Below, piece by piece: positions 1-17,445 of a stretch of DNA of 64,000 nucleotides. Source of the stretch: Streptomyces sp. NBC_01754 (lineage in GTDB: Bacteria > Actinomycetota > Actinomycetes > Streptomycetales > Streptomycetaceae); the NCBI RefSeq assembly GCF_035918015.1, contig NZ_CP109132.1:1364001-1428000 (forward strand), in the 5' to 3' direction. Position numbers and translations under genes: made by a program. Numbering within the stretch: the stretch's first letter is position 1; the number at the start of each line of letters is the position of its first letter. The notes below the pieces were generated by a model. It had not been told where the DNA came from. It saw only the letters and a list, made by a program, of their open reading frames with translations, and searched no databases.

Positions 1-2826
1 GAGCGTGAACTCGTCCAGCTCCCTGGCCTCCACGTAACGCCCCCGGGTACGCAGGATGTTGGAGAGGTGGAAGCAGAGGTACAGGTACTGGAGGTCCCGC
101 TCCCCCAGCATGGCGAGCCATGCCTGGCGCAGCTCGTCACCCAGGATCCCGGCGGTCCTGACGTCCCCGCGCTTCCACAGGTAGCGCACCCGGTCGATCA
201 GCAGCCTGCGGGTCTCCGGCTCCTTGCAGTCGCGTGCGTCGGACGGGCCGAGGTGCGGCCAGATCGTCGCGAAACGCGGCCAGGTCTCCGGGTTGTCGAT
301 CGGCTCGTCGTCGTCGGGCCTGGCACCCGCCAGGATCCGGTGGACCACGTGCCGGGCCTCCCGCTGCTCCTCCTCACCGAGCTGGTCCCTGATCACCGCC
401 TGCACCAGGCGGTGCACCTGGATGGAGTTGGAGACCTGGTCGACCTTGGCGAGGGCGAAGCGGCCGATCTCCCGGATCACCCGGCCCAGGACCAGCTTCT
501 CCTGGAGCGAGGAGTCGTAGGGCTTCAGCGCGTCGATCATCTCCTTGCTGTAGAGGAGGTTCGCGGAGATCGGCTCGGGGGCGAAGAACGCGCAGAGCTG
601 GAGCAGCCGCACCGCGGCGGGCGAGCGCTCCTTGAGGCGCTCGATGGAGATGTTCCAGGTGGCGGCGACCGGCTCCGGGTAACCGGCCGGCTGGTTCAGG
701 GCCAGAACCCGCGGTGCCTGGCGGGCCAGCTGTTCCAGGTAGGCGTCGATGGGCGTGGCGGTCTCCGCGATCCAGGCCGCCGCCTGTTCCACCGCGAGCG
801 GCAGGTCACCGACGGCCGTGGCCACGTGGGCGGCGTCCTCCTCACTGAGCCCCGGGGCGCGGCGCTGGAGGTGTTCGATGGACTCCTCCCGCAGGAAGAC
901 GTCGACGGGCAGCGCGTCACCGTGCTGGGACCAGCTCTGGTTCCTGGAGGTGACCAGGATGTGGCCCGAGCCGCCCTGCGGGAAGTAGCGGCGGAGACGT
1001 TCGGGGTCGTCGGCGTTGTCGAAGACCAGCAGCCAGCGGTCCGAGGGCACCCCCCGGCGCAGCAGGTCCACCGCCTCCTTCGAGGCCGCGCCCATGTCGT
1101 CGCCGCCCTGGGCACCGAGCCGGACGGCCAGTTCGGCGAGGCCGGCCACCACGTCGTCGGTCTGCTCGGACGATATCCACCACACCAGGTCGTAGTCGGC
1201 CATGAAGCGGTGCACGTACTCCAGGGCCACCTGGGTCTTGCCGACGCCGCCGAGCCCGTAGAGGGCCTGCGGCTGCGGCAGGACGACGGCCATCCCGCCG
1301 CCGAGCTGGTCGCGCATCCGCTCCAGGACCAGGGAGCGGCCGGTGAAGCCGGGGTTGCGGGGCGGTGCGTTCCAGATCCTGGGCACGGTGCCGGGGAACC
1401 GCGGGCCGGGCGCCACCCCGTCACCGAGCTGGACCGGCCGGTCCACGGCACGCATCAGGGCGGTGGTGGCGTGGACCTCGTCCAGCCGGAACAGGTCCAC
1501 CGGGTTGCGGTCGATGTACGGTGCCGAGAGGCGGACGTCGCTGACCCTGAGCGGCAGCAGACGGCGCCGCCCGCCGCCCGGGTCCTCGGCGACCGCCCGG
1601 TCCCACAGGTCCACGGCACGCGGGGACTTGAGGTAGGCGCTGGAAAGCAGTACGACCGTACGGGCCGCGGTCTCGCCGTGTGCGGTGTCGTCCCCCGGGC
1701 CGGGGTCCGCCAGGACGTCACGCGGGACCACCCGGAACCCGGCCCGGGTGAGGACCGCCTCGATCCAGTCGGCCCACATGCGGTTCTCCGCCACATAGCT
1801 GAGGAAGAGGTCGGCGGGCAGCGCGGGCCTGCGCCGGGTGAAGGCGTCACGGATCCGCAGCCGGACCTCTTCGCTCACCGCCGGCATCGACGTGATCTCC
1901 CCCTCGGTGACCACGGCTGTCAGACGTTCGAACGCGGACAGCAGCGAGTTGCTGAGCCCGGCCTCGTCGCCGAAGGTGGCCAGCGTCTCCTCGTACGCGT
2001 AGTAGGGGCGGTAGGGGATCTCCACCGCGCCCCAGTAGGCGGTGAGTTCGTCACCGGAGAGGTCACGGGGCAGCCGGTCGAACTTCAGCCGGGCCAGTGC
2101 CCGGCCGGCGTCCGCCTTCTCCTTCTCGCCCTCGTCGATGCGCATCGGGACGGGGAAGACGGCGATGGGCCTGCCGGTGTAGCGTTCGGCGATCTGCCGG
2201 GCGACGGAGGCGGCCCCGTCGATGGACTGGTCGCTGAGGGTGAAGCAGTCCACCAGCACGTCCGGGAGGTGGACGGTGCAGATGTCGGCGATGTCGCTGA
2301 GACCGGTGCGGCTGTCGATGAGGACGTAGTCGTAGTTGGCCTTCATGTCGGCGCGCAGGGCGTCGAAGAAGTGCCCGCCGCCGAGCCGGTCGTAGAAGTT
2401 GTCCCAGTCGAAGGTGGAGACGGTCGCGGAGTACTCGCGGTTCTGCCGCCCGGCGGAGACGAAGTCGAGGGTGCCGCCCCGCGGGAACTCCCAGCCGAGC
2501 GCCTCGGGGTTGAGCGAGACCGCGTGCGGCTGGATACGCGCGTAGTCGTGGTGCCAGTCCTCGGCACGCCGGGCCGGGTTGGTCGCGGCCCAGGCGTATT
2601 CGGTGATCAGGTCGATCACACCGGTGGTGGCGCCGAGCGTGGACGGGTCGAGGAAGGGGTGGAAGAACCGGTGGAGCCCGGGGGCCTCCAGGTCCCAGTC
2701 GACGGCCAGTATCCGTCTGCCGTTGGCGGCCAGGATCCAGGCGGTGTTGGCGAGGGCCATGGTGCGCCCCGTACCGCCCTTGTACGAGTAGAAGGTGACG
2801 ATGCGCCCGTCACGGCCGGCTGTCAT
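1..2826 (-). CDS. fxsT: FxsT-like ParA/TIR/NB-ARC/TPR protein (C-terminus beyond window)
   Basis: The minus-strand frame is open from ATG 2826 to the window edge, giving 942 codons with no stop. Residues 1-300 are a MinD/ParA-like ATPase with a deviant Walker A (YSYKGGTGRT; the P-loop lysine is Arg, the signature lysine is kept). A TIR-like block starts near residue 333 (ADLFLSY). An NB-ARC ATPase follows, with P-loop GLGGVGKT near residue 525 and LLVFDNAD as Walker B. Helical repeats begin near residue 900 and continue past the edge. This order matches the FxSxx-COOH-system tetratricopeptide protein (FxsT). Its ATG overlaps the fxsC stop by four bases (ATGA), so translation is probably coupled. 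The TIR part lacks the usual Trp-Cys-x-x-Glu block, so it may be non-catalytic. The role in the system is unknown; sensing or regulation is inferred from the STAND architecture. Confidence 0.88.
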   Translation of the reverse strand, partial: MTAGRDGRIVTFYSYKGGTGRTMALANTAWILAANGRRILAVDWDLEAPGLHRFFHPFLDPSTLGATTGVIDLITEYAWAATNPARRAEDWHHDYARIQPHAVSLNPEALGWEFPRGGTLDFVSAGRQNREYSATVSTFDWDNFYDRLGGGHFFDALRADMKANYDYVLIDSRTGLSDIADICTVHLPDVLVDCFTLSDQSIDGAASVARQIAERYTGRPIAVFPVPMRIDEGEKEKADAGRALARLKFDRLPRDLSGDELTAYWGAVEIPYRPYYAYEETLATFGDEAGLSNSLLSAFERLTAVVTEGEITSMPAVSEEVRLRIRDAFTRRRPALPADLFLSYVAENRMWADWIEAVLTRAGFRVVPRDVLADPGPGDDTAHGETAARTVVLLSSAYLKSPRAVDLWDRAVAEDPGGGRRRLLPLRVSDVRLSAPYIDRNPVDLFRLDEVHATTALMRAVDRPVQLGDGVAPGPRFPGTVPRIWNAPPRNPGFTGRSLVLERMRDQLGGGMAVVLPQPQALYGLGGVGKTQVALEYVHRFMADYDLVWWISSEQTDDVVAGLAELAVRLGAQGGDDMGAASKEAVDLLRRGVPSDRWLLVFDNADDPERLRRYFPQGGSGHILVTSRNQSWSQHGDALPVDVFLREESIEHLQRRAPGLSEEDAAHVATAVGDLPLAVEQAAAWIAETATPIDAYLEQLARQAPRVLALNQPAGYPEPVAATWNISIERLKERSPAAVRLLQLCAFFAPEPISANLLYSKEMIDALKPYDSSLQEKLVLGRVIREIGRFALAKVDQVSNSIQVHRLVQAVIRDQLGEEEQREARHVVHRILAGARPDDDEPIDNPETWPRFATIWPHLGPSDARDCKEPETRRLLIDRVRYLWKRGDVRTAGILGDELRQAWLAMLGERDLQYLYLCFHLSNILRTRGRYVEARELDEFTL

Positions 2827-4208
2827 ACGTCCTCCGCATCCGTCGCAGGATCGTGCCTGTCGGGTATGAACCGTGTGGGGCCCATGAGCCCCATCGGCCC
2901 CATCAGTCGCGTCCGCTCGCTGTGCCGTCCTCCGGTCGCCGGCGGATAGGCCGTCGCGTGCCTGAGATACTGCTGGGCGGCCGCCTCCACCACCTGGGGG
3001 AGGATCTGTCCGAACGCCTCCATGGTGGGTACCCCCTTGGCCGCGGCACGGCAGAAGGCCCGCCCCTGCCGCATCTTGACCGGCATCGTCCGTTCGAGCT
3101 TCTCGATCAGTTCGGCCTCCGCCGCCCGGCTCTGGTGGTCGTCGCGGCACCACGGCACGACCATGGTCACCCAGGGCCGGTTCTCCGCGTCGAACGCGGC
3201 GAGCCTCCTGCGGCAGTCCTCGTCCTGGAGGGCCCAGCGGTCCACCAGGAGGATTTCCGGGGTGCTGGGCGCCTGCTTCCCCTCCGGCCGGCCGGTCTCC
3301 TCGTCGAACGTGGTGACGACGGCCTGGTAGTTGAGGGAGCGCACCAGCTCCTCCGCGACGTAGGCCAGGGGTCTGGCCGCGGCCGGATGGTACGGGTTCC
3401 ACTCCTGCGGGTTGTCGCCGTAGTACTCCGGACTGCGGCCTTCGGGCAGGTCGTGACGGGTGGGTGCGGCGATGGTGATCCGCATGGGCCGGGGAGCACC
3501 GGCGCCGCTGTCGGGAGGCCCGAAGGCGCTGGGCACGAGGCGGTAGTCGAGGGGCCGGCCGGTGTCGATCCGTACGGTGTCGGCCACGCTGACGATGCGT
3601 TTGGCCAGTTCGTAGACTGCCCGTTCGTAATCCTGGGCAAACAGCCTGAGCTTGATCAGTCCGTAGAGGCCGTCACTGACGTAGCGGTCGCCGAAGTCCC
3701 GGTGGTTGAACTGCAACCTCTCGGCAGGGCCGGGCAGTTGGCTCGGCGGCACCGGCACCCACAGCGCGGGGACGATCGCCTCCGCCGGCTGGTTGGAGCG
3801 CGCCCGGTGGTGGATGGCCCGCTGCTCGAAGGCGTACCACTCCTTGCCGCACATCACACTGGCGAAGTACCGGGGTGAGAACAGCGGTACGAAGACCCTG
3901 CAACTGGCCAGCACCGCGCCCAGACGTTCCGACCAGCCCTCGCCGGACCGGATCTCCCGGTCCATGAATCCGGCGGCCGCCCCCGCGGGCAGATCGGTCA
4001 TGGCCATCACATGGCCGCAAAGATCTTGGAAAAGCCGTTCGACCCACATATCCGGGTCCGATCCGCCGCCGTACCCCGGCGTGTGCGCATAACTCAGAAA
4101 GAAGTACGGCCGATGGTCCGCCCGCCGGTGCGTCAACGCGTACACACGACCCCCGTCCTGTGTGGCACTCGCATCCCTGATGAGGAGGGGCGCGAGAGAA
4201 ATCATCAT
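2823..4208 (-). CDS. fxsC: TIR-like protein FxsC
   Basis: 461 aa from ATG 4208. A TIR-like domain spans about residues 34-150: YFFLSYAHTPG opens it and SPRYFASVMCGKEW contains a Cys-x-x-Glu arrangement like the WCxxE segment that holds the catalytic Glu in TIR NADases. The C-terminal half (about 230-430) has a second alpha/beta region with no motif I can name. Size, order and TIR-like start match FxsC of FxSxx-COOH loci. The true start is uncertain: GTG 4148 (reading VYALTHRRADH) follows a purine-rich AGGACGGGGG and would remove the first 20 residues. It lies 75 bp after fxsB and overlaps fxsT by four bases, so co-transcription is likely. NADase activity is inference only. Confidence 0.85.
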   Translation of the reverse strand: MMISLAPLLIRDASATQDGGRVYALTHRRADHRPYFFLSYAHTPGYGGGSDPDMWVERLFQDLCGHVMAMTDLPAGAAAGFMDREIRSGEGWSERLGAVLASCRVFVPLFSPRYFASVMCGKEWYAFEQRAIHHRARSNQPAEAIVPALWVPVPPSQLPGPAERLQFNHRDFGDRYVSDGLYGLIKLRLFAQDYERAVYELAKRIVSVADTVRIDTGRPLDYRLVPSAFGPPDSGAGAPRPMRITIAAPTRHDLPEGRSPEYYGDNPQEWNPYHPAAARPLAYVAEELVRSLNYQAVVTTFDEETGRPEGKQAPSTPEILLVDRWALQDEDCRRRLAAFDAENRPWVTMVVPWCRDDHQSRAAEAELIEKLERTMPVKMRQGRAFCRAAAKGVPTMEAFGQILPQVVEAAAQQYLRHATAYPPATGGRHSERTRLMGPMGLMGPTRFIPDRHDPATDAEDV

Positions 4209-4283
4209 TCCGGAGCGGACCTTGCTCCACCCCCATGGCGTTCAGTCGATCAACGCGTCTTTCCAGTCATCCCTACCCAGGAT

Positions 4284-6563
4284 TCACCGAACACGTTCAT
4301 GACCCGGTGTATTCACCAGGAGCTTCTTCCCACTTGCCCCAAGCGCCCCCTCCGCCTCGGCCCGGAGGGAATTCAGGAGCAGCGTTCCCCCGGCGGTCGG
4401 CTCGGCGGCGGCGTCGAGCGTGTCGAGCGCCCGCAGCACTTCCTCCCCACCGTCCGGTCCGAGGGCGAGAAGACCCACCCGCTCATAGGTCTCGGCCAGC
4501 AGACCGGAAAAGGGGACGGTGGAATTCCGCTCCCATGGCAGCGGATATGTCCATGCCCCGTCCAGGGCGTACAGGTCCGTGACGTCCAGGAGCGCGCGCA
4601 GCCGGGTCCGCCGCAGCTCGCGCAGCAGAGCGCGTGCGGTCTCCCTCACACCGCCCGCCGTCGAAAGGCCGGCCGCCCCGTACCCGTGCGGCCGCCGTGC
4701 GTTCCGCCCGGGGCGGAGCGGGGTCAGTGTGGTCAGGCTTCCGGCGGCGTCCGCCGTGTACGCGGGAACGGCCTCGGTCAGCAGCGCCCACGCCCCGGCG
4801 ACCGTCTCGCTCCACGCGGCCGCTCCGGCCGGCCCCAGCCGGGGCGCCGCGGGCGCGCCGAAGCAGTCGCGGTACGGATCCACGTCGTCCAGGGCGACGG
4901 ATGGCGCCCCGGCCCGGCAGAGGTGCCGCACCGGCAGCCAGCCGGGGCCGTCCGCCTCCGCGAAGGGGATCCGACGCTCGGCGCCGCCCTCCTCACGGAC
5001 CGTGAATCCGTCACCGGAGCGGCGCACCCGCACCGCGCCCGACGTGCCGGGCGCCCCGATCCGCAGTTCACCGAGCGTGGGCAGGAGAAGCCTGCCGTCC
5101 TGGTACCCGGCCGGCACCACCACGTCGAGCCCGGCCCGCACCGCCGCGGCCGCCACGTACGCAGGCAGCCGCAGCGCCTGCCCCACGGCGTCCTGCCGTC
5201 CGGCCCGGAGTCCTTCGAGAACGTCCAGCAGCCAGGTGCGCGTGTAGGGGTGGGTCAGCACCCTCTCCAGCCCCTCGGCCCCCTCGTCCGTCTCCTCCAG
5301 CGCACCGGCCAGCTCCCACGCCTGCTCCCACCGGTCGCCCGCGCGGCCGTCCAGCGCCTGGTGCAGGCCGGCGAGGAGGGTGCGGGTCAGGTCGTACTGC
5401 GCGGCCGCCAGCTCGCGCCGGTCGGTCAGCACGGGCGATACGGCGGACGCCGCCGCGCCCCGCGCGATGCCGCCGACGAGGGCCTCCAGATCGGCGCAGT
5501 AGACGGACGGGTTGTCGAAGCCCCCGGCCGAGCTGTACCGATGGGTGTAGAGCCCGCCCCCGCACGAGCGGACGACGGGGCAGCGGCGGCACGTCTCGCT
5601 GACACCGGCCAGGCCCAACTGCCGCGCCCGGACACCCGGGTGGGCGGCGACCTCGTCGAAGGAGTGCGAGAACACGTCGAAACCGGTGGCCGCCGCCCCT
5701 TCGTAGGCGCTCTTGAGCGAGTCCACCTGCTCCAGCTGGCCGTCGGTCTCGACCACCACCAGGTCCGTGGGGGCCAGCCCCAGGGACTCGGTGAGGCTGG
5801 GGCCGCCGCTCAGCGTGGAGAGCACGGAGGAGAAGATCCGCACCGGGACGGGCCTGCCCTGCTCCTGCCAGCGGTCGAAGACCGCGAGGAGCCAGTCCGC
5901 GTACGCGGTGGGCTTGCCGGACGGGCGCGGCGGCGGGTCCTCCCAGGTGGCGTGCGGGAGAAGGAAGTCGATGAGCGGCGGTTCGAGCGCGACGAGCGCG
6001 TCCAGGACCGCGTGCGGGTCGTTCTCGATGTCGATGGTGCACAGGAGACCGAGGTTCAGATGCCGGTAGCGCTCCTGCCGCAGCAGTTCCACGGCCCTGA
6101 GCACGAGCGGGTGGCTGCTGCGTCCGTCGGCGAAGCGCCGGTGCCGGTCGTTGGCCGCGCGGTCGCCGTCGAGGGAGATCCCCACCCTGACGCCGAACTC
6201 GTCGAACAGGTCGAGGTAACGCGGGCTGAGCTGGAGGCCGTTGGTGTGGATCCGGAGGTCCAGTTCGGCGACACCCGCCAGGGCCGAGCCGAACTCCTCG
6301 CAGACGCGCCGCAGACGGGAGGGACCGGCCAGAAGTGGTTCCCCTCCGTGCAGGATCACTGACACGGAGGGCAGTGCATGTGTCTTGGCGTGCTCAGCGA
6401 GACGCTGCGCAGTCCGGGAAATCACATGATCAGAAACTGCTTTGGGCCGGGTTCTCCAGCTCTGATCTGCGTGTTCGTACACATAGCAATGATCGCAGGC
6501 GAGATCACACCTGCTATGAACCTTCAGAACGATTTCGCGGAATGGCACCGCGGGCCCTGTCAT
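4284..6563 (-). CDS. fxsB: Radical SAM/SPASM cyclophane-type maturase FxsB, inactivated metallohydrolase extension
   Basis: 759 aa. The radical SAM cluster motif is CDLACDHC (Cys19, Cys23, Cys26), followed by the glycine-rich HGGEPLL segment. A SPASM-type cysteine cluster lies near residues 320-365 (CRRCPVVRSC, then NPSVYC), expected to bind auxiliary Fe-S. The C-terminal extension (about 370-759) resembles the HExxH-containing extension of relatives, but the helix reads LLRELRRTRLRALL: RELRR stands where HExxH is expected, the known inactivated form. Related enzymes crosslink a Phe ring to a nearby residue in the precursor (three-residue cyclophane). The substrate is almost certainly the product of fxsA, 58 bp upstream. 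ATG 6563 has AGGA 8 nt upstream. The final crosslink is inferred from the family. Confidence 0.93.
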   Translation of the reverse strand: MTGPAVPFREIVLKVHSRCDLACDHCYVYEHADQSWRTRPKAVSDHVISRTAQRLAEHAKTHALPSVSVILHGGEPLLAGPSRLRRVCEEFGSALAGVAELDLRIHTNGLQLSPRYLDLFDEFGVRVGISLDGDRAANDRHRRFADGRSSHPLVLRAVELLRQERYRHLNLGLLCTIDIENDPHAVLDALVALEPPLIDFLLPHATWEDPPPRPSGKPTAYADWLLAVFDRWQEQGRPVPVRIFSSVLSTLSGGPSLTESLGLAPTDLVVVETDGQLEQVDSLKSAYEGAAATGFDVFSHSFDEVAAHPGVRARQLGLAGVSETCRRCPVVRSCGGGLYTHRYSSAGGFDNPSVYCADLEALVGGIARGAAASAVSPVLTDRRELAAAQYDLTRTLLAGLHQALDGRAGDRWEQAWELAGALEETDEGAEGLERVLTHPYTRTWLLDVLEGLRAGRQDAVGQALRLPAYVAAAAVRAGLDVVVPAGYQDGRLLLPTLGELRIGAPGTSGAVRVRRSGDGFTVREEGGAERRIPFAEADGPGWLPVRHLCRAGAPSVALDDVDPYRDCFGAPAAPRLGPAGAAAWSETVAGAWALLTEAVPAYTADAAGSLTTLTPLRPGRNARRPHGYGAAGLSTAGGVRETARALLRELRRTRLRALLDVTDLYALDGAWTYPLPWERNSTVPFSGLLAETYERVGLLALGPDGGEEVLRALDTLDAAAEPTAGGTLLLNSLRAEAEGALGASGKKLLVNTPGHERVR

Positions 6564-6621
6564 TCCACCATCCTAGCCAGCGGACGGAGCGGAATTTCAC
6601 AGTTGGTGACGGACGGTCGGG

Positions 6622-6816
6622 TTACAGCGCGGAGTTGAAGGTCGAGACCTGCTTCGGGCGACCGTTGGCCGCCCCGAGGACTCGTCCCATCTTCGCGGCG
6701 GCCACGCCACCGGAAGTCTCGATCTTCGCGAGGGGCACACGACGCTTCGCGACGGCGAAGTGCGGGGTTGATTCGTAGGTCTTCACGGCCGTCCTTGAGG
6801 GGCTCGTTCCGGACAC
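6622..6816 (-). CDS. fxsA: FxSxx-COOH RiPP precursor peptide FxsA
   Basis: Short peptide ending exactly in FNSAL, the F-x-S-x-x-COOH signature that names these systems. The body is basic and mixed (SGGVAAAKMGRVLGAANGR) and acts as leader. Two starts are possible. GTG 6816 gives 64 aa but has no clear ribosome site. GTG 6786 gives 54 aa and has AAGGA with a 5-nt spacer, so I prefer it. The stop is 58 bp before fxsB, so it is the first gene of the operon. The Phe and Ser of the terminal motif are the expected modification sites. The mature product and its export are not apparent: no dedicated protease or transporter lies nearby. Confidence 0.88.
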   Translation of the reverse strand: MSGTSPSRTAVKTYESTPHFAVAKRRVPLAKIETSGGVAAAKMGRVLGAANGRPKQVSTFNSAL

Positions 6817-6999
6817 GGAAACAGCACCGGAACGTGCACCATTGCAGTGTCCGGCGGCACGACTTTACTCTCATGACCCCGGTGCGCAACTCAGCACGCG
6901 CCTATGCGACCCGAATGATTTGCATAACTGCTCCATGTGGGCGATGCCCCCTTCATCCCGGAGACCGGTGACCCTCTCCAACGAATAACAGGAGTGACC
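6817..6999. promoter_or_regulatory. Divergent intergenic region between fxsA and the SLATT gene
   Basis: 183 bp between diverging genes, visibly less GC-rich than the coding DNA. It must hold the fxs operon promoter (minus) and probably the promoter of the SLATT gene (plus). I could not fix a confident -35/-10 pair in either direction. Confidence 0.4.
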
Positions 7000-7929
7000 A
7001 TGACGGCGATTCCCGGACCCCTGCGGAGCATGGTCTTCAGGAGCGCTGATCTGCCCGCACTCTTCCACCGCACCGACGCCGAGGCCGTCGCACGCCGGCG
7101 CGAGGCGGTCAACACCACCCGCGGACAACTGGCCCTGCTGGTCCTGGGCACCCTGCCCGCCGCGCTGCCCTGGCACCTCCAGGTCGGCGGCCCGGTGCGA
7201 CTGCTGGACTGCGTCGCGGTGACGGCGTACGTGGGTGTCCTGATGACGACGTATCTCGCCTCCCGGCGCAAAGCGAAGTCGCATTGGCAACTCAACCGCT
7301 CCGCAGCGGAGTTCATCAAGTCCAACTGCTGGCGCTACGCCGTCCACGGCTCCCCCTTCGACACCGGCACCCCCCACCCGGAGGCGGTGTTCGCCAACCG
7401 GCTGGAGGAGGGGTTGCAGGAGTTACGCAAGGTGGGATGGCAGGACCCCCGGGAGGAGAGGGACGACGAGGGCGGCGGTCTCATCACCGCGTCCATGCGG
7501 GAGTTGCGGGGCAAGGCGTTCACCGTGCGCAAGGAGACCTACGTCCGGGACCGGCTGATCGAGCAGCGGCGCTGGTACCGCAGGCGGCAGCAGGTGTCGC
7601 GCAAGGGGGCGCTCGTCTGGTCGGGCGCCATAGCCGCCCTGACGCTGCCCGCCCTGGTCCTCTCCGTGCTCCAGGCGCTCGGCAACGCCGGGTCCTTCGC
7701 CCTGACCGGGTCGTTCTCCGCCGCCGCTGCCGCCTGCCTCGCCTGGAACGAGATGCGGCGCCACCAGCCGCTGGTGTCGGCGCACTCGCTGGTGGAGGAG
7801 GACCTGGAGAACATGCAGGCGGCCATGGAGACCACCCTGACCGAACGGCAGTGGGCGGCGGCGGTCTTCGAGACCGAGCGGATCGTCAGCCCCGAGCACA
7901 CGGACTGGCTGGCCCGCCACCGGATGTGA
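7000..7929 (+). CDS. DUF4231 / SLATT-domain membrane protein
   Basis: 309 aa from ATG 7000, preceded by AGGAG 8 nt upstream; an in-frame earlier start at 6937 lacks a ribosome site. Two predicted helical pairs are visible: about residues 43-60 and 66-87, and two more between about 205 and 250. Between them is a soluble segment containing KSHWQLNRSAAEFIK, typical of DUF4231/SLATT proteins. SLATT proteins are known from comparative genomics as membrane effectors or sensors associated with nucleotide-second-messenger conflict systems. It converges on a SLOG-fold gene 12 bp away, and this SLATT/SLOG adjacency fits that theme. The actual function here is unknown. Confidence 0.78.
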   Translation: MTAIPGPLRSMVFRSADLPALFHRTDAEAVARRREAVNTTRGQLALLVLGTLPAALPWHLQVGGPVRLLDCVAVTAYVGVLMTTYLASRRKAKSHWQLNRSAAEFIKSNCWRYAVHGSPFDTGTPHPEAVFANRLEEGLQELRKVGWQDPREERDDEGGGLITASMRELRGKAFTVRKETYVRDRLIEQRRWYRRRQQVSRKGALVWSGAIAALTLPALVLSVLQALGNAGSFALTGSFSAAAAACLAWNEMRRHQPLVSAHSLVEEDLENMQAAMETTLTERQWAAAVFETERIVSPEHTDWLARHRM

Positions 7930-7941
7930 CGGCGTTTCGGC

Positions 7942-8421
7942 TCAGCCGCGGGTCACCCCGTCGCGCCAGATGACCGTGACCGGGCGGCCCAGGGTGCGGG
8001 CGTACGTCACGATGTCGCCGGTACCGCCCCGGCCCCGCGCCGGCCGTCCGTCCCAGACGGCGAGCAGCCGGTCGCAGTGGTCGGCGATGTAGGCGCCCGC
8101 GGCGTAGTAGGCCTCGTCCGTGGCGTGCGGGAAGTCCAGCCGGACCTCGCGGACCGCCCGCGCCCTCAGCGTCCGGTAGCGGGTCAGGTCCGCCGCGTCC
8201 TCGAAGTCGTGCTCGTAGTCGGCGCTGGGGATCACCGCGGTCAGCTCCGCCCCGTGGGCCAGGGCGAGGCCGGCGAAGATCTGGTCCGCGCCGACGGCCA
8301 GGCTGGAGAGGGCTTCGAGGGAGCCCTCGAGCCCGCACAACGCGCTCCGTATCCCCTCCCGCACATGGGCGTGCGCCTCCTCGGGGATGGAGCGGTGACC
8401 GGTCACTCCGATGCGTTTCAC
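7942..8421 (-). CDS. SLOG-fold (Rossmannoid nucleotide/ligand-binding) protein
   Basis: 159 aa from GTG 8421 (reading MKRIGVTGHRSI), with AGG close upstream; a longer frame back to 8499 is possible but low-complexity. The fold signature is RIGVTGHR at the first strand, SLAVGADQIFAG mid-protein, VIPSADYEHDF, and RLLAVWDGRPARGRGGTGDI. This is the pattern of SLOG/TIGR00725-like Rossmannoid proteins that bind nucleotide-derived ligands, where the GGTxD-like block is the ligand loop. It converges with the SLATT gene, stops 12 bp apart. A role in signalling with that neighbour is inferred only. Confidence 0.72.
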   Translation of the reverse strand: MKRIGVTGHRSIPEEAHAHVREGIRSALCGLEGSLEALSSLAVGADQIFAGLALAHGAELTAVIPSADYEHDFEDAADLTRYRTLRARAVREVRLDFPHATDEAYYAAGAYIADHCDRLLAVWDGRPARGRGGTGDIVTYARTLGRPVTVIWRDGVTRG

Positions 8422-8527
8422 GGACCTGGGACCCCCTGGGTGTCTGCGGGGGCCCGGAAGAGACACCTCCGGCCTTCCTCCGCGCCCGATCGCTCCCACA
8501 TCCTCTCAAAAGCCGCGGGCCGAGCGG

Positions 8528-8582: not shown

Positions 8583-9494
8583 TCAGTACAGGGTGACGCC
8601 GTACGCGCTCAGCGCCTCCTTGACGGGCTGGAAGAAGGTCGTGCCCCCCGTGGTGCAGTTCCCGCTGCCGCCGGAGGTGAGCCCGACGGCCCGGGAGCCG
8701 GAACGGAGCGGGCCGCCGGAGTCACCCGGCTCCGCGCATACGTCGGTGCGGATGAGGCCCCGCACGATGTCCCCGCCGCCGTAGTTGACCGTGGCGCCGA
8801 GGCCGGTGACGGTGCCCGTGTGGACGCCGGTGGTGGATCCGCGGCGGGTGACACGCATGCCCACCGCGGCGTCGGCGGCCCCGGTGATGTCCTGGCCGCC
8901 GACCGCACCCTCCTTGGCGACGAGGTCGTTGGTGTAGCGCACGATGCCGTAGTCGTCGCCGGGGAAGCTGGAACCGCCGGTGACGCCGAGGACGACGGTC
9001 CGCCCGGGGTCCGCGTACCAGGTACCGGCGCCCTCGGTGCAGTGACCGGCCGTCAGGAAATAGGACGCCTCCCCCTTGCGCACGTTGAAGCCGAGGGAGC
9101 ACCGCCAGCCACCGGTGTGGACGGGGTCGCCGCCCGAGACGAGTGTGCGGAGCCTTCCGGGGGTGCGTTCGATGCGCAGGGCGCCCGCCTGGGCCCCCGC
9201 GGTCTGCTTGATCCTTTCGATGTCGGCCTGCGAGACGGTGCTGTCCACGGTGACGACGAGCCGCCCGCCCACCGGGTCGGGGTCCCAGGCGGTACCGGCG
9301 ACGTCGGCGTCGAGCACGGCCTGTCCCGCCGCGAGGAGTTGGTCGGTGCTGTACGTCTCGGCGGTGCCGGCACCGGCCGCGGGCACGGCCTGGGCGGTCA
9401 CGGCGGCGAGGCCGGTGACGACGGCGGCGGTGACGGCGGCCGTCCTGGTGCGTTTCGGGTTCTTTCCGTGGGGGGTGGTGCGCTTGATCCTCAC
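8583..9494 (-). CDS. Secreted trypsin-like serine protease (streptogrisin/alpha-lytic type, S1)
   Basis: 303 aa from GTG 9494 with GGAGG upstream. A basic N-terminus and hydrophobic stretch (residues about 18-40) form a signal peptide ending near AVPAAGA. A short pro-region follows (about 43-118, with [11 protein letters not shown] as in alpha-lytic-protease propeptides). The mature enzyme begins near residue 119. Catalytic residues are visible: His151 in TAGHC, Asp181 in GDDYGIV and Ser259 in GDSGGP. Cysteines flanking the His and Ser regions fit the family's disulfides. It should be exported and self-process. The pro-region is short compared with streptogrisin B/C-type enzymes. No adjacent inhibitor or regulator is seen. 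Confidence 0.9.
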
Positions 9495-9720
9495 TTCTTC
9501 GTTCCTCCCGAGCGGGATCCGGGGTCCGCGGCGAGATGGCCGGACCCGTGAGGCGCGGTCAGGAGGAGCACCCGCACCCCGGGCGCGGACGCCATGACGG
9601 CGCGTGGGGGTGCTCCGTGCTCCTGACGGGCGCTGATCGGGAGTATCGAGGCCGGCCGACGGGCCACACAAGGACGCCTTTTCGGACATCCTGCTCGTAC
9701 GTGGACGGGGCGGGGTATGT

Positions 9721-9749
9721 GGGGCGCCTCCGGTCGCATGAGGCGCCCC
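9721..9749 (-). terminator. Stem-loop after the DUF1684 gene
   Basis: Perfect 10-bp arms (GGGGCGCCTC and its complement) with a 9-nt loop, about 30 bp past the stop of the DUF1684 gene. The interval 9495-9720 upstream of the protease shows no other gene. Confidence 0.6.
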
Positions 9750-9778
9750 GGTCCCACGGGGCGCCCGTGCCGGACGGG

Positions 9779-10585
9779 TCAGGCGTCGAGGCGGTTACGC
9801 TCCCCCGCCGGGACCGCGACCGGCAGGGTGTTGCCCGGCGGCGGGAAGGGGCAGATGAAGTGGTCGGCGAAGGCGCAGGGGGGCAGCAGCGCCCGGTTGA
9901 AGTCGACCACCACCCCGCCCTCCGCGTCCGGGGCCGCCGGGCGCAGGAAACGGAAGCGGTAACTGCTGGTGCCGCTGGTGGCGTCGGCGAAGACGGCCCA
10001 GAGCGAGCCGTCGGGCTCCACCGCCACCCGGAGCGTGTGTGTGGCGCCGTCCAGCGTGAAGGCGATCTCTCCGCCGAGGCCGAGTCCCCGCTCGCGTCCG
10101 TCGGCGTTCTCGACCCGGACGGACCGGCCGGATTCGTACGGGCGGAAGACACCGTCCAGGGACCAGCGCGGGTCGTACGGGGTGGCCTCGACGGTCCGGA
10201 AGGCGTGCCGTGCGGGCGAGGCCGGGTCGAAGTCCCGTACCGCCCAGAGGCCTTCGCGGCGCAGCACGACGAGCCGGCGTTCGCCGCACGCGACCCGCGA
10301 GGTGTCGATGGGACCTCGGTCCGGACCGAGGCGTGCCTCGCCGGCCAGCGGTTTCGTGTCGAGGGTCAGTCCGTCGCCGGGGGCGGCGGTCAGCAGCACC
10401 CTGCCGCCGTCCTCCCGCCATACCCCGGGCACACCCGGGACGCGGCCGTCCGGGTGGTCGGAGAGCCAGTGGGTGCCGGTGAGGGAGAGCGGGCCGTGCG
10501 GTGCCGCCACGGCGACGATGCGCTGCTCGTGCCAGCGCCGCCATTCCGCGGCGCCCTGGCCGTCCTGTTGTGCGTCCGTGCTCAT
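9779..10585 (-). CDS. DUF1684 domain-containing protein
   Basis: 268 aa from ATG 10585, with GGAAGGG 7 nt upstream. The C-terminal block ([16 protein letters not shown], then [12 protein letters not shown]) is the conserved core of DUF1684, a family of unknown function widespread in actinobacteria. The N-terminus ([25 protein letters not shown]) also matches that family. No signal peptide or membrane segment is present, so it is cytoplasmic. It stands alone on the minus strand, 169 bp after the DUF5685 gene. No reaction can be assigned. Confidence 0.85.
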
Positions 10586-10754
10586 GCGGTCAACCCTTCC
10601 ACACCGGCTCGGCCCGCCCGGGGTACGACCTGAGCGTGGTGCCGGTGTACGACGGGGCGTGCGGCGGCGTCCTGGCGCAGTGGGGCACCGGCGTGTACGC
10701 GATCGTGGGGGTGCTGGTCCCGCCGCCCGGGGCCGGGGAGCCCGCGGGACGGGC

Positions 10755-11972
10755 TCAGCAGTCGCAGCCGGCGCAGCACTTGCCGCAGCAGTCGCACCCC
10801 TTGCAGCAGTCGCCGCAGCAGTCGCACCCCTCGCAGCAGCCCTCGCAGCAGTCGCCGTTGCGGCAGAGCCCCTCGTGCGGCTGCCCGCTCCACGGGCCGT
10901 GGAAGGTGCGGGCGCAGCACAACTGGCAGGTGCAGGCGAGTCCGGCCCAGACCAGGCAGCCGGCGACGAGGCCGCGTCGGTTGCGGGGCGGCTCGGGCGG
11001 GAGCGGGGGCCCGGAGGGACCGCCCGGGGCCGGCGCGTACGGGTTGCCGGGCGGCGGGCCGAAGTCACCGGCCGGCCGCGTCCCCTGCCGGTGGCCGTCC
11101 TGCCCGTGCGCGCACGCGGTCGAGCCGAACGCCCGGTCCACCGAGCGCCGCAGTTCGTGCACCAGCAGCACATGGGCCAGCGTGCCGTCGGTGAACTCCG
11201 CGTCCGCCAGCGCGAGGCGCACCCCGTGCAGCGCGTCGTCGCAGAGCCGGCGCGCCTCGCCGAGCGGGGTGCCGGTCGCGGTGAGCGGGTTCCAGGCACC
11301 CGACGCGGCGTCAGCTCCCTGGTCCTCCACCGCGTCCAGCAGATGCGCGAGCCGCCCGAAGAGCCGGCCGGCCTCGGCGAGCGGCCCGGCGTTCCCCGGC
11401 CTGCCGGCGAGTACGGCGGTGTGCGCGAAGGCCGCGGCGGTCGCCGTCTCGGTGGGTTCGGTGACCGTCAGGAGGCGGGTGCCGGGGCCGGCGAGCGACT
11501 CGACGCCGGTCTGCCGGTCGACGGCGTCGACCAGGACCGCGGTGTCGAAGCCGAGATCGGCCCCCGTACGCGCACCGGCTCTGTCCCACCCGGCGGCGAC
11601 CCGGCGGGCGGCGGCGGCCACCGGGCGCCGCTTCAACAGCCCGTCCCGGTCCGCCACGTGGTCGCGCACCTTCGCCGAGGCCAGCACCAGCGAGACGGCG
11701 GCCGCGAGCCGGGCCCCCTCACCGCGGGCGACGGGCGCGGTGCGCATCGAGCGCAGCGGGCAGGGGCCCGCAGTGCGCCTCCCCTCGGCGGTACGTCCGA
11801 CCTGAGCCTCCGTCAGGACCGAGACGATCAGACCGTCGTAGTTCGTGGCGATCCGGGCGAACTGCCCGTGGTCGGCGCGGAGCGCGAGGCAGAGCCCACA
11901 GAGGTGGGCCATCCATTCCACCTTGAGCCCCTCGGACAGCCGATGGGCGCAGGGCCTCACTATTCCGAACAC
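10755..11972 (-). CDS. DUF5685 family protein with a cysteine-rich tail
   Basis: 405 aa from GTG 11972 (MFGIVRPCAHRL), with GGGGGA upstream. The N-terminal CAHRL...HLCGLCLALR arrangement has three to four Cys/His that could bind metal. The middle is helical and Ala-rich. After a Pro/Gly-rich linker (about 310-345) comes a short hydrophobic Cys-containing segment (LVAGCLVWAGLACTCQLCC). The last 33 residues contain 16 cysteines in a near 10-residue period (CDCCGDCCKG, CDCCGKCCAG). Known members are of unknown function. The tail suggests metal binding or a cysteine cage, which is inference. The divergent region to the sepF-like gene (11973-12284) is locally AT-rich and likely holds both promoters. 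Confidence 0.85.
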   Translation of the reverse strand: MFGIVRPCAHRLSEGLKVEWMAHLCGLCLALRADHGQFARIATNYDGLIVSVLTEAQVGRTAEGRRTAGPCPLRSMRTAPVARGEGARLAAAVSLVLASAKVRDHVADRDGLLKRRPVAAAARRVAAGWDRAGARTGADLGFDTAVLVDAVDRQTGVESLAGPGTRLLTVTEPTETATAAAFAHTAVLAGRPGNAGPLAEAGRLFGRLAHLLDAVEDQGADAASGAWNPLTATGTPLGEARRLCDDALHGVRLALADAEFTDGTLAHVLLVHELRRSVDRAFGSTACAHGQDGHRQGTRPAGDFGPPPGNPYAPAPGGPSGPPLPPEPPRNRRGLVAGCLVWAGLACTCQLCCARTFHGPWSGQPHEGLCRNGDCCEGCCEGCDCCGDCCKGCDCCGKCCAGCDC

Positions 11973-12284
11973 GACCGTCCCCCGTACGCCGTTCCCCCGC
12001 ATTGCGGCGCGCCCGCGCGGGCACACGGCGTGCATCGTATCGAGTGACCCGTTCACCCGTACGTCCCCCATGTCACCCGTACGGACTGGAGCATCATATT
12101 TTCTTTCCGCAAGGCGCCTTATATGGGTGGAAACCTGACGAACCGCCACATGATCTGCACCAGTACCGTCACGAATACCCCCTGCGCCGACCATCCCCTT
12201 GGCGCACGATCCGCATCATGCACGACCATAGGGATAGGAAAGAGATGCGGAACACCACAGAACCGCGGTGAGAGGAGGCGTCCA

Positions 12285-12725
12285 ATGGGATCGGTGCGCA
12301 AGGCGAGTGCCTGGCTGGGCCTCGTGGAGGACAACGACGAGCGGTACTACGACGACGGGTACTCCGAAGAGGCGGACACCGGCACCAACCAGGCGTGGGT
12401 GACCGACCCGCGCGTGCAGGTCGCCTCCGAGGGGGCGCAGGACACGGGCCGGCGGATCGCCACCGTCGCCCCGGACAGCTTCCGCGACGCGCGCGCCATC
12501 GGCGAGCTCTTCCGGGACGGCGTACCGGTGATCGTCAACCTCACGGCCATGGACCCCACCGACGCCAAGCGCGTCGTGGACTTCGCCGCGGGGCTGACCT
12601 TCGGGCTGCGCGGTTCGATCGAGCGGGTGGCGACCCGGGTCTTCCTGCTGACCCCCGCCCACACCCAGGTGGTGAACGGCGAAGCCGCCGGCCGGCCCGC
12701 CGACGGCTTCTTCAACCAGAGCTGA
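12285..12725 (+). CDS. sflA: SepF-like cell-division protein (probably SflA-type paralogue)
   Basis: 146 aa from ATG 12285, preceded by GAGGAGG. The N-terminus [16 protein letters not shown] resembles the membrane-targeting amphipathic helix of SepF. The C-terminal domain (about 60-135) has the SepF pattern [25 protein letters not shown] in pieces and ends with TRVFLLTP. SepF anchors and aligns FtsZ at the membrane. Streptomyces carry SepF plus two paralogues, SflA and SflB, that affect tip growth. The surrounding gene set (acyl-CoA dehydrogenase, later cmk/der, ald, pyrG, recN) is the neighbourhood I recall for SflA, which is why I use that symbol. It is not next to ftsZ, which argues against the main SepF. 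Confidence 0.78.
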
Positions 12726-12756
12726 GCAGGGCGCTCGCCTCAGGCCTCCCGCGCCC

Positions 12757-13965
12757 CTAGCGGAAGGCGTCGAGGCCGGTGAGCGCCTTGCCCAGCACCA
12801 GCTGGTGCATCTCCACGGTTCCCTCGTAGGTGAGCACCGACTCCAGGTTCGTCGCGTGGCGCATCACCGGGTACTCCAGCGAGATGCCGTTGGCCCCGAG
12901 GATCGTGCGCGAGGTGCGGCAGATCTCGATCGCCTCCCGCACGTTGTTGAGCTTCCCGAAACTGACCTGCTCCGGACGGAGCCTGCCCGCGTCCAGCCGC
13001 CGGCCCAGGTGATGGGCGAGCAGGATGCCCTTGTGGAGTTCCACGGCCATGTCCGCGAGCTTGGCCTGGGTGAGCTGGAAGCCGCCGATCGGCCTGCCGA
13101 ACTGCTCCCGCGTCCGCGCGTAGTCCACGGCCGCCTCGAAGCTCGCGCGCGCCGCGCCCATGGAACCCCAGACGATGCCGTAGCGGGCGTGGTTGAGACA
13201 GCTGAGCGGTCCGCGCAGACCGGTGGCCTGCGGCAGGACGGCGTCGGCGGGCAGCCGTACACCGTCCAGGACCAGCTCACTGGTGACCGAGGCGCGCAGC
13301 GACCACTTGTGCCTGATCTCCGGCGCGCAGAAGCCCGGGGTGTCGGTCGGTACGACGAAGCCGCGGATGCCCGAGCCGTCCGCCGTCTCACCGGTCTGCG
13401 CCCAGACGACGGCGACCCCGGCGACCGAACCGTTGGTGATCCACGTCTTACGGCCGGTCAGCACCCAGTCCGCACCGTCCCGCACGGCGTGGGTGCGCAT
13501 CCCGGCCGGATCCGACCCGTGGTCCGGCTCGGTGAGGCCGAAGCAGCCGATGATCTCCCCGGCCGCCATACCGGGCAGCCAGCGCCGCCTCTGCTCCTCG
13601 GAGCCGAAGCGGTGGATGGCGTACATGGCGAGCGAGCCCTGCACCGAGACCAGGGAGCGGATCCCCGAGTCGGCGGCCTCCAGTTCCAGACAGGCCAGGC
13701 CGTACTGCACGGCGCTCGCGCCTGCGCAGCCGTATCCCTGGAGCGACATGCCGAGTGCGCCGAGCGCGCCGAGTTCGCGGGCGAGGTCACGGATGCCGGG
13801 GAGCTCGCCCTGTTCGTACCACTGGGCGATGTGCGGCAGGATGCGGCCGGTGGCCCAGGTGCGCACGGTGTCGCGGATCGCGAGGTCCTCCGGGTCGAGG
13901 AGGTCGTCGACGCCGAGGGGGTCGGCCGGGTCGAACGGGGGGAGTTTCGACGGCTTCGCGGACAA
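12757..13965 (-). CDS. Acyl-CoA dehydrogenase (glutaryl-CoA dehydrogenase-like)
   Basis: 402 aa from TTG 13965, chosen because GGAGG lies 5 nt upstream; a frame to 13995 is open but has no better site. FAD-dependent acyl-CoA dehydrogenase in three domains: N-terminal helices to about 130, the beta domain with GCFGLTEPDHGSDPAGM and WITNGSVAGVAVVWA, and the C-terminal helical domain with RTREQFGRPIGGFQLTQ. The catalytic glutamate is in LTYEGT near the C-terminus, the position used by glutaryl- and medium/short-chain enzymes. ILGANGISLEYPVMRH resembles glutaryl-CoA dehydrogenases. The substrate cannot be fixed from sequence, and no electron-transfer flavoprotein genes are adjacent. Confidence 0.88.
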   Translation of the reverse strand: MSAKPSKLPPFDPADPLGVDDLLDPEDLAIRDTVRTWATGRILPHIAQWYEQGELPGIRDLARELGALGALGMSLQGYGCAGASAVQYGLACLELEAADSGIRSLVSVQGSLAMYAIHRFGSEEQRRRWLPGMAAGEIIGCFGLTEPDHGSDPAGMRTHAVRDGADWVLTGRKTWITNGSVAGVAVVWAQTGETADGSGIRGFVVPTDTPGFCAPEIRHKWSLRASVTSELVLDGVRLPADAVLPQATGLRGPLSCLNHARYGIVWGSMGAARASFEAAVDYARTREQFGRPIGGFQLTQAKLADMAVELHKGILLAHHLGRRLDAGRLRPEQVSFGKLNNVREAIEICRTSRTILGANGISLEYPVMRHATNLESVLTYEGTVEMHQLVLGKALTGLDAFR

Positions 13966-14037
13966 GGGGGCCTCCGGCGGCTCGCACGGTACCAAAAACT
14001 AGCAGTGGTAGTCATCGCGTCGTGCAGACGTTACGGC

Positions 14038-15777
14038 TCAGCGTCCCACCCGTCCAGAGCCGGTCGCCTCCACGACCTCGCGCCGCCCCGGTGCCCGGTG
14101 GCGGTGCCCGGACGCGCCCTGCGACGGGAGCGTCCGGGCTTCCGGGTGCGGCCGGACCGGATCGGCCGCACGGAAGGGGTTCTGCTCCGGGACGGCCGGC
14201 GGCTCGGTGGCCGTCCCGGACTCCCCCGCCTCCGGGCCGCACTCCATGGCACGCGGCAGCCGGAGCGCGGCGAACGCTCCCAGCAGCAGCAGGCCCGCGC
14301 TGACCAGCAGCGTCACATGCAGCCCGTCGACGAAGGCGTGCCGGGCGGTGGTGCGCAGCACGTGCCCCGCGGGGCCGCCGAGCTGCCCGGCCACCTGGTA
14401 GGCCTCGCCGAGCGAGCGGGCGGCGGCCGACCCCGCGGCGGCGGGGACGCCTTCCTCGTGGAGCCGGGAGAGGCCGGGGGCGTAGGCCGCGTTCATGACA
14501 CTGCCGAGCAGGGCGATCCCCATACCGGCGCCCAGCTGGTAGGAGGTCTCACCGATCGCGGCCGCCCCTCCCGCCTGTTCCGCGGGTGCCTCGCTCAGCA
14601 TCGATTCGTAGGCCCCGAAGAGCGTGGACTGGAGTCCGAAGCCGAGCAGCACGAACCCGGCGGTGAGCAGTACGGGCCGGTCGTGCTGGCCCATCAGGGT
14701 CAGCAGGAGCACCGAGCCGGCGGTGAGCACGAAGCCCCAGCCGACCATGCGGCGCGGACCGACGCGGCGCAGTGTGTACGAGCCGGTCGCGCCGGCCGCC
14801 ATGGCGGCGAAGGTCAGGGGGAGCAGCCGCAGACCGGTTTCCAGCGGGCTGAGGTCCAGGACCAGTTGCAGGTACTGGACGGCGATCAGCTCCAGGCCGA
14901 CCAGGGCCAGCATGGCCAGGACGATGCAGCCGACGGCGGTGGTGAAGGCGGGCCGGGAGAACATCGCGATGTCGATCAGCGGATGGGTGCGGCGCCGCTG
15001 CCTGCGGACGAAGAGGACGAGGAGCGCGGCGCCCGCCAGCAGCGGGACCAGCGCGGCGGCGTCCGGCACCGGCCCCCCGCCGCCCAGGCGCTTTATCCCG
15101 AGGACGACGCCGAGCACCCCGGCCGCGGCCGTCAGCGCGCCGAGCACGTCCCAGGGCCCGTCGTCGCCTCCGCGTGATTCGGGCAGCAGCCAGCGTCCGG
15201 CCGGCAGGACCACGGCCATCAGCGGGACGTTGATCAGGAAGACCGAACCCCACCAGAAGTGCTCCACGAGGAAGCCGCCGACGACCGGGCCGGTGGCGGC
15301 CCCCACCGCGGCGACCGCGGTCCACACCCCGATGGCCAGGGCGCGCTCACGACGGTCGGGGAAGACCTGGCGGAGGATCGAGAGCGTCGCGGGCATGATC
15401 ATCGCGCCGCCGACACCGAGGAGGGCGCGCGCCGCGATCAGGACGGTGGGGGTGTCGGCCGTGGCGGCGAGCGCGGAGGCGGCGCCGAAGAGCGCGTAGC
15501 CGCACAGCAGGACGCGCCGCCGCCCGATCCGGTCACCGAGCGTGCCGAACAGGATGAGCAGCGAGGCGCAGACCAGCGGGTAGGCGTCCACGATCCACAG
15601 CAGGCCCGCGGCGCTCGGCCGCAGGTCCTCGGTGACGGCCGGGACCGCGACGTGCAGCACGGTCGCGTCGAGGGCGACCAGCAGCAGACTGAGGCAGAGG
15701 ACGACCAGGACGACCCACCGGTTGCCTCCACCGGCCGCTCCGCGCAGCCGTGTCACAGCCGTGGACGTCCCCGTCAT
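14038..15777 (-). CDS. MFS drug-efflux transporter, DHA2 (14-TMS) family
   Basis: 579 aa from ATG 15777 with GGGAGGAA upstream. About fourteen hydrophobic helices run from residue 20 to 500, followed by a hydrophilic tail. Family motifs are present: LDATVLHVAVPAV in TM1 (motif D1), GDRIGRRRVLL after TM2 (motif A) and GPVVGGFLVEHFWW in TM5 (motif C, typical of antiporters). Closest to the SmvA/QacA-like drug:proton antiporters. Located in the cytoplasmic membrane, it probably exports a hydrophobic or cationic toxic compound. No TetR regulator is adjacent. The polar tail of about 75 residues (PEARTLPSQGASGHRHR) is an unusual extension. Confidence 0.9.
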   Translation of the reverse strand: MTGTSTAVTRLRGAAGGGNRWVVLVVLCLSLLLVALDATVLHVAVPAVTEDLRPSAAGLLWIVDAYPLVCASLLILFGTLGDRIGRRRVLLCGYALFGAASALAATADTPTVLIAARALLGVGGAMIMPATLSILRQVFPDRRERALAIGVWTAVAAVGAATGPVVGGFLVEHFWWGSVFLINVPLMAVVLPAGRWLLPESRGGDDGPWDVLGALTAAAGVLGVVLGIKRLGGGGPVPDAAALVPLLAGAALLVLFVRRQRRRTHPLIDIAMFSRPAFTTAVGCIVLAMLALVGLELIAVQYLQLVLDLSPLETGLRLLPLTFAAMAAGATGSYTLRRVGPRRMVGWGFVLTAGSVLLLTLMGQHDRPVLLTAGFVLLGFGLQSTLFGAYESMLSEAPAEQAGGAAAIGETSYQLGAGMGIALLGSVMNAAYAPGLSRLHEEGVPAAAGSAAARSLGEAYQVAGQLGGPAGHVLRTTARHAFVDGLHVTLLVSAGLLLLGAFAALRLPRAMECGPEAGESGTATEPPAVPEQNPFRAADPVRPHPEARTLPSQGASGHRHRAPGRREVVEATGSGRVGR

Positions 15778-16279
15778 GTGCGTTCCTCCCGCAGTGTGTC
15801 CCTCGCGCTCGGCGGACCTCCCGGGCACCTGCTCACGGCGTCCCCAGGCCCGGCATCGACGGGCGAGTGAGCCGTCAGCGTACGCGAGTGCCCTCCGGTC
15901 ACACGTGGCCCATCTCATACCGCCGCCCGCCCCGGAGTGTGCCGTACCCCTCGCGCGCCCCCGCGGCGGGGGCCCGCCACCTGCCGGTGCCGCCGGCGTA
16001 CGAGCGGTGCGTCCGGCGCTCTCCGCGAGCGCGCTCGGGCGGCCGGCCGGAGACCGCCGGCGAATGACGGGGCACTTCCGGCGACCCCGTCGGGCCATTT
16101 ATCGAATATCAAACATTTCTGCGATTCAAAGGCGCCGGACGAATATCCCGCGCGCCTGGAGGCCATTCTCCGGACCACGCGGAATAGACGCCGCCCTGAG
16201 ACAAAGTCCACATCACATCGTCATCACAAAGAGGCGGGATGGACCAGACCACACACTCACTCGCTGTAACGTCCTTTGC
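15778..16279. promoter_or_regulatory. Divergent intergenic region, exporter / PAP2 phosphatase
   Basis: 502 bp between diverging genes. 16090-16270 is strikingly AT-richer than its flanks and probably carries the promoter of the PAP2 gene. No gene or clear operator palindrome was found. Confidence 0.35.
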
Positions 16280-17374: not shown

Positions 17375-17386
17375 CCCGGCGACCGT

Positions 17387-17436
17387 CGCATACGCCTGCG
17401 AGCCCCGGCCGAAGCCGGGGCCCGCGGGCGTACGCG
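17387..17436. terminator. Long bidirectional terminator between PAP2 and I78 genes
   Basis: 23-nt arms closed by a CGAA tetraloop; three mismatches in the arms read as G-U pairs. It sits between the convergent stops at 17374 and 17446. Confidence 0.75.
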
Positions 17437-17445
17437 ACCGTCGTG

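Follow-up and report, generated by a model that had tools for sequence, protein, structure and literature searches.

A conserved genomic island that couples a peptide-modification cluster with genes for a SLOG-fold protein and a protein predicted to form a membrane pore opens the stretch of DNA analysed here, 64,000 nucleotides of the chromosome of Streptomyces sp. NBC_01754 (positions 1,364,001 to 1,428,000 of contig NZ_CP109132.1; hereafter, the window). The cluster, fxsA-fxsB-fxsC-fxsT, encodes a ribosomally synthesized and post-translationally modified peptide (RiPP) of the FxSxx-COOH type. An earlier note on this DNA had confined the unit to these four genes, but the SLATT and SLOG genes that lie next to them (7000-8421) are part of the conserved fxs island. 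We tentatively read the whole as a resident chromosomal, intracellular, peptide-gated STAND/TIR conflict system, in which a nucleotide signal would pass through SLOG to SLATT. The four-gene core is already known as the standalone FxSxx system (Kaur et al., eLife 2020, PMC7159879, available part of the text); new are the membership of SLOG and SLATT in the island, the degenerate HExxH site of FxsB, the contrast between FxsC and FxsT in the TIR glutamate, and the hydrolase gene found beside fxsT in other genera.

The linkage was assessed in 121 congeneric genomes, for which all counts are lower bounds obtained from the best first-look candidates (53 scored per genome in the case of FxsA). FxsC exceeds its cut-off in 44 of these genomes, FxsB in 77 and FxsA in at least 48, so the four fxs genes do not always occur together, a point that the earlier note had proposed to check. 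SLATT is found in 34 genomes at E<=1e-40, and the alpha/beta-hydrolase encoded just past the window edge, a conserved neighbour of the island (Abhydrolase_1; its S33 match is sub-threshold), in 46 at E<=1e-60. SLOG matches at E<=1e-15 are present in 62 genomes, 34 of them with at least 146 bits, the next scoring 113 bits. The 34 SLATT genomes and these 34 SLOG genomes form identical sets, all contained within the 44 FxsC genomes (Fisher test, 1.9e-21, with kinship ignored). In 32 of the 34, SLATT lies at most 15 kb from FxsC, and in G322, a broken assembly, it is on a different contig. Within 15 kb of the 60 FxsC loci of the sample (tandem copies, as in G386 and G396, counted apart), FxsB is found at 50, the hydrolase at 43, SLATT at 32 and SLOG at 31. 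By comparison, none of the six hydrolase-positive, FxsC-negative genomes carries an intact SLOG-SLATT pair, as read from rows over 60 bits. Sites L128-L131 consist of a protease, the hydrolase, in three cases an SPFH gene, and a second protease, with no match to SLOG, SLATT or fxs; DnaE follows the second protease in the three sites where the fetched stretch reaches that far. At L125 a partial hydrolase adjoins a SLOG remnant, and at L126 FxsB lies on the far side of the hydrolase, with no match to FxsC, FxsT, SLOG or SLATT. SLOG, SLATT and fxs are thus gained and lost together at this site.

The same association is seen in 80 named Streptomyces loci, the nearest relatives of the window by FxsB; these are close kin, hence the wider genus sample. 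Among the 73 with sufficient flanks (no less than 3.5 kb before FxsB and 8.5 kb after it), fxsC and fxsT are both present in 69, of which all 69 encode SLATT and 68 the hydrolase. Most named loci share the order protease, SLOG, SLATT (divergent), fxsA-B-C-T and hydrolase (convergent), with another protease and DnaE often coming next. A group of 23 loci within L071-L101 (e.g. L075, positions 8717-20172), each of which has an acetyltransferase gene, carries the fxs block in inverted orientation between unchanged neighbours, so that SLATT comes after fxsT, on its strand, and the hydrolase precedes fxsA; the gap between fxsT and SLATT is 69-72 bases in those four of the ten listed loci whose SLATT start was read as MTDS.

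Beyond the genus, FxsC exceeds its cut-off in 29 of 316 genomes of a class-level sample, in which SLATT homologues at E<=1e-12 occur in at least 16 genomes, 10 of them with FxsC (six candidates scored per genome). In 20 hand-picked loci, mostly from other genera, the hydrolase gene lies beside fxsT in 10, an acetyltransferase gene is present in six and the SLOG-SLATT pair in two; the hydrolase gene adjoins fxsT in all eight long-FxsB loci read from other genera. Beside distant fxs genes, the pair occurs at L141, from another family, and at L150, which is congeneric, encodes a short FxsB and gave no hydrolase match. An FxsB tree was built by a quick search from 62 rows, namely the window, 29 named loci (of 80) and 32 members of the set L114-L153 (40 loci). 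On it, the SLATT label, scored within the fetched stretch alone, requires at least five changes, four of them forced by well-supported branches; L150 forms a long branch whose placement is unsure.

The SLATT gene (7000-7929, plus strand; we read its start as the ATG at 7000 that follows AGGAG) encodes a predicted protein of the membrane-pore type with clear SLATT_3 and SLATT_1 matches in Pfam and NCBIfam. The SLOG-fold protein is encoded on the minus strand at 7942-8421, its GTG start at 8421 being placed by alignment, with the listed open reading frame beginning at 8499. A Pfam search of this protein at E<=1 gave no match. Its AlphaFold model, of about 159 residues from that start, forms a single domain (pLDDT 86.6), for which Foldseek returned YpsA as the best match (2nx2; E 1.4e-8, TM 0.66), then DprA and, more weakly, LOG proteins; the predicted structure thus has the YpsA/DprA/LOG fold of the SLOG superfamily. 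The match to the SLOG domain of ThsA with bound 3'cADPR is weak (E 4e-3).

The fxs genes themselves are all encoded by the minus strand and run fxsA-fxsB-fxsC-fxsT; every one of them exceeds the curated threshold of the NCBI family to which it belongs. The description of a complete fxsA-B-C-T locus in the earlier note thus holds for the four identities, their order and the single strand, but fxsT runs beyond the window edge. The precursor gene fxsA (6622-6816) encodes 64 residues ending in FNSAL-COOH, and is assigned to the FxSxx-COOH RiPP precursors by this F-x-S-x-x-COOH terminus and by its TIGR04268 score of 46.3 bits (cut-off 28; E 3.4e-12); the genome encodes at least one FxsA over the cut-off among the best 150 of 557 first-look candidates scored. 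Non-conservation of the fxsA frame in relatives would have spoken against it, but a frame ending in F[NSQ]S[AS]L precedes fxsB in all 80 named loci: FxsA was matched by tblastn in 74, and for L047, one of these, and the six loci that gave no tblastn match it was recovered by searching the frames that precede fxsB for the pattern, with the ends FNSSL, FNSAL or FQSSL. The 73 FxsA sequences read out among the named loci end in FNSAL (50), FSSAL (18) or FNSSL (5). Between fxsA and the divergent SLATT gene lies an intergenic region (6817-6999, no strand assigned) in which a sigma-70-type site was looked for and not found.

The product of fxsB (4284-6563; also FxsBH) combines a radical SAM/SPASM maturase (residues 8-366) with a degenerate mod_HExxH domain (residues 375-737). 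The former places it in TIGR04269 (593 bits against 370), with a CxxxCxxC motif that reads CDLACDHC in all 78 aligned FxsB rows. The FxsA product is probably cross-linked. The extension resembles hydroxylases and peptidases, but its HExxH is replaced by RELRR (4608-4622, minus strand), where the aligned sites of L114, L116, L119 and L132 read HELQH, HELQH, HEFLH and HEYQH, respectively. FxsB fits NF040587, the 'inactivated' form (442 bits against 225), and scores 41.5 bits against TIGR04267, the family of alpha-ketoglutarate-HExxH peptide beta-hydroxylases and zincin-like peptidases, whose intact metal site the extension lacks; the extension is also the only TIGR04267 match in the genome. HExxH was absent from 79 of the FxsB extensions extracted from the 80 named loci, several of which were incomplete, the exception being the truncated FxsB of L104, read in the wrong frame. 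The degenerate site corrects the expectation that the cluster would cleave or hydroxylate its own peptide.

Two proteins of the locus carry TIR domains. FxsC (2823-4208) consists of a TIR domain (residues 34-210) and the FxsC C-terminal domain (242-435), and exceeds the cut-offs of NF040588 (233 bits against 130) and TIGR04276 (255 against 55); it is a member of the TIR family. Its Glu123 (3840-3842, minus strand) occupies the position that we take, from the TIR consensus and a weak profile alignment to 3h16, to be catalytic. The glutamate is present in all 121 near copies (the window and the best 120 of 728 matches) and in 27 of 29 more distant ones (tblastn stretches longer than 110 residues, drawn from L114-L153 and in part congeneric); among the 73 aligned rows of the named loci, 70 have Glu, two Gln and one a gap. 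FxsC thus retains the conserved glutamate of TIR NADases, and NADase activity is predicted. In the tandem FxsC pairs of L132 (10864-12673) and L152 (8409-10222), one copy carries Glu at this position and the other Gln. The fxsT gene overlaps fxsC by four bases; its full frame of 1310 residues (L002, 8894-12826; G000, contig C1, 1362894-1366826) has its N-terminal 942 codons within the window (1-2826), comprising the KGGVGR ATPase, TIR and NB-ARC domains, DUF7779 and the first TPRs. This part scores 651 bits against NF040586 (cut-off 300) and 149 against NF047398 for the KGGVGR ATPase (cut-off 90), with TIR_2 and NB-ARC matches, whereas the full protein matches AAA_31, TIR_2, NB-ARC, DUF7779, TPR_12 and TPR_10 in Pfam, its TPRs resembling those of kinesin light chain. 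The P-loop GLGGVGKT is invariant in 74 of 74 sequences. By contrast, the FxsT column aligned to the catalytic glutamate, presumably placed correctly by the TIR consensus, holds a non-acidic residue (L, V, F, I, A, M) in 74 of 74 sequences and Glu in none. Judging from these residues, FxsC is the likely catalytic TIR protein, and the TIR domain of FxsT is probably non-catalytic.

Because a glutamate-retaining TIR, a STAND protein, a SLOG-fold protein and SLATT share one island, a TIR-made nucleotide signal acting on a membrane effector is the simplest reading of the locus. The identities of the genes, the state of their key residues and the linkage within the genus are observed, and the SLOG fold is predicted; every biochemical step, their order and the role of the peptide are what we infer. 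FxsB would cross-link F-N-S at the FxsA C-terminus into a cyclophane, and either the mature tail alone or the entire modified precursor would remain in the cell. FxsT, with its STAND NTPase, KGGVGR ATPase domain, glutamate-less TIR and TPRs, would act as sensor and assembly platform, and upon triggering would cluster FxsC through TIR-TIR contacts; FxsC would then convert NAD+ into a nucleotide signal, which the SLOG protein would bind so as to open or license SLATT, permeabilising the membrane. The peptide may set the trigger level as a ligand or restraint of FxsT. A more specific version, in which the cyclophane RiPP gates a Thoeris-like pathway, serving inside the cell as either trigger or safety catch for nucleotide-signalling cell death, with a non-catalytic TIR in FxsT, a catalytic one in FxsC, a SLOG intermediary and a SLATT pore, is doubtful.

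Several observations weigh against the proposed conflict system. Models in PADLOC gave no match at E<=0.001 to FxsA, FxsC, SLATT or SLOG; those of PDC-M28B match the ATPase part of FxsT, and pVip matches FxsB weakly. The FxsC structure model is of only moderate confidence, and the column preceding the aligned FxsT position is acidic in many sequences (30 D and 25 E of 74), so FxsT may have a catalytic acid in a shifted position. In L091 and L098, the sole FxsC has Gln in place of Glu123, yet SLATT and SLOG are kept, which argues against a need for FxsC catalysis at these loci and slightly reduces our already guarded estimate for the proposed system. Furthermore, SLATT-SLOG is absent from 10 of the 44 FxsC genomes and from 18 of the 20 hand-picked loci, and the output module is thus dispensable for some fxs loci. 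In the window, SLATT is divergent from fxsA and outside the operon; L081, L104 and L105 retain SLATT without fxsC and fxsT; in G350, SLATT-SLOG lies 466 kb away from FxsC; and six of the 16 class-level genomes carry a weaker SLATT homologue but no FxsC. The last four observations, together with the divergent orientation in most named loci, would also fit an independent two-gene SLOG-SLATT conflict system that merely shares the fxs insertion site. We consider this unlikely, given that FxsC is present in all 34 congeneric genomes bearing the SLATT orthologue, that SLATT still adjoins the fxs block after the inversion, and that the pair recurs near the distant fxs subtypes of L141 and L150.

It is likewise improbable, in our estimation, that the peptide, once modified, acts directly as the effector or leaves the cell as an antibiotic-like signal, with FxsT and FxsC regulating its production or conferring immunity. 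RiPP precursors usually yield diffusible products, and an AAC(3)-like acetyltransferase gene adjoining fxsB could serve to tailor or silence such a product. This gene (PF02522; e.g. L091, 12174-12968), found in 29 of the 73 full-flank named loci and absent from the window, lies between fxsB and fxsC where the latter is present and also occurs in other genera; its product may tailor the peptide. An MFS transporter gene (PF07690, 160 bits; 14038-16098, minus strand) lies outside the island, 4.3 kb past the flanking protease gene. The available part of the 2020 paper allows a 'peptide toxin or signal' as the FxSxx product (PMC7159879). Yet the C-terminus of FxsA is nearly invariant, which is unlike peptides engaged in an arms race, the HExxH domain, formerly described as a peptidase, has lost its site in this locus, and in the window no exporter gene is found between the SLOG and hydrolase genes, where there is no room for one (relatives were not searched for transporters). 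Accordingly, of the statement in the earlier note that the locus has neither protease nor exporter, the part on the exporter stands for the operon and this interval, whereas that on the protease applies to the operon only, in view of the degenerate HExxH domain of FxsB and the nearby alpha/beta-hydrolase gene. Because the island leaves no room for an exporter, an intracellular role of the peptide is the better bet, and together with the near-fixed C-terminus this favours a peptide that acts on FxsT within the cell, as its ligand or its restraint. That FxsT is an AfsR-akin developmental or metabolic STAND regulator with FxsA as a coregulatory ligand and SLATT and SLOG as passengers seems most improbable of all: its NB-ARC part matches the AfsR family model (39.8 bits, cut-off 1430) and the locus sits among the same flanking genes in most named relatives, as befits housekeeping rather than mobile defence, but the Pfam matches of full FxsT include no DNA-binding domain, FxsC is not over its cut-off in 77 of the 121 congeneric genomes, and SLATT-SLOG is gained and lost along with it.

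Outside the core, two S1 protease genes flank the island (8583-9689 in the window, with an alpha-lytic protease prodomain, and L002, 6416-7501) and persist at island-free sites. Further along, a 479-residue frame on the minus strand (10755-12194) has a strongly Cys-rich tail of the CDCCGDCC type, and between 56001 and 62000 the G+C content drops to 0.56-0.62 with a strong negative GC skew, which may reflect a ribosomal RNA operon or foreign DNA.

The standalone FxSxx systems of Kaur et al. comprise, in the available text, a radical SAM/SPASM enzyme, the FxSxx peptide and an AP-ATPase with TPRs and a MinD/ParA-like domain (PMC7159879), all of which are found in the window. They differ in having an active metallopeptidase as a core component, where the window has the fused degenerate domain with RELRR. 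We regard the window locus as functioning in the manner of these systems, from which it is derived, since its metallopeptidase core is degenerate and the genome holds no second TIGR04267 match. In the same available text, SLATT is treated in GAP1 sections 28 and 29, whereas the names FxsA, FxsB, FxsC and FxsT do not occur. FxsB also resembles the radical SAM enzymes that make triceptides, or three-residue cyclophanes, in that it belongs to TIGR04269, named by NCBI as cyclophane-forming, its product here being predicted. According to the accessible part of a review, MscB joins C4 of Phe to C-beta of Ser, and a 2025 paper states, in its available part, that the bioactivities of triceptides still await elucidation (PMC12257519). 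FxsB is reportedly also treated by Phan and Morinaka (2022, ACS Chem Biol 17:3284). The window resembles Thoeris (TIR protein ThsB and SLOG effector ThsA) in having a glutamate-retaining TIR and a SLOG-fold protein; it differs in that its SLOG is a single domain of about 159 residues with no SIR2 or other effector domain fused to it, standing alone beside a separate SLATT gene, and in the added RiPP and STAND protein. The adjacent SLOG and SLATT genes recall the known SLOG-SLATT and TIR-SLATT pairs, but here the pair is tied to an fxs cluster. In the accessible part of PMC9503650, SLATT adjoins TIR genes in phages and is predicted to be a membrane effector regulated by derivatives of ADP-ribose, and the YpsA-like SLOG clade is linked to the sensing of cyclic ADP-ribose, which gives the precedent, by analogy, for TIR-made nucleotide signalling to a membrane effector. 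No paper linking SLATT to FxSxx loci was found among the matches listed from the open-licence literature, and no experimental role of an FxSxx peptide was found in print, with most subscription journals outside the search.

FxSxx loci are common, with FxsC over its cut-off in more than a third of the congeneric genomes (44 of 121). The tie of FxsC to the SLOG-fold and SLATT proteins provides a concrete, testable output for the peptide, and the assignment of the probable catalytic TIR to FxsC, rather than FxsT, points experimenters to the residue worth changing.

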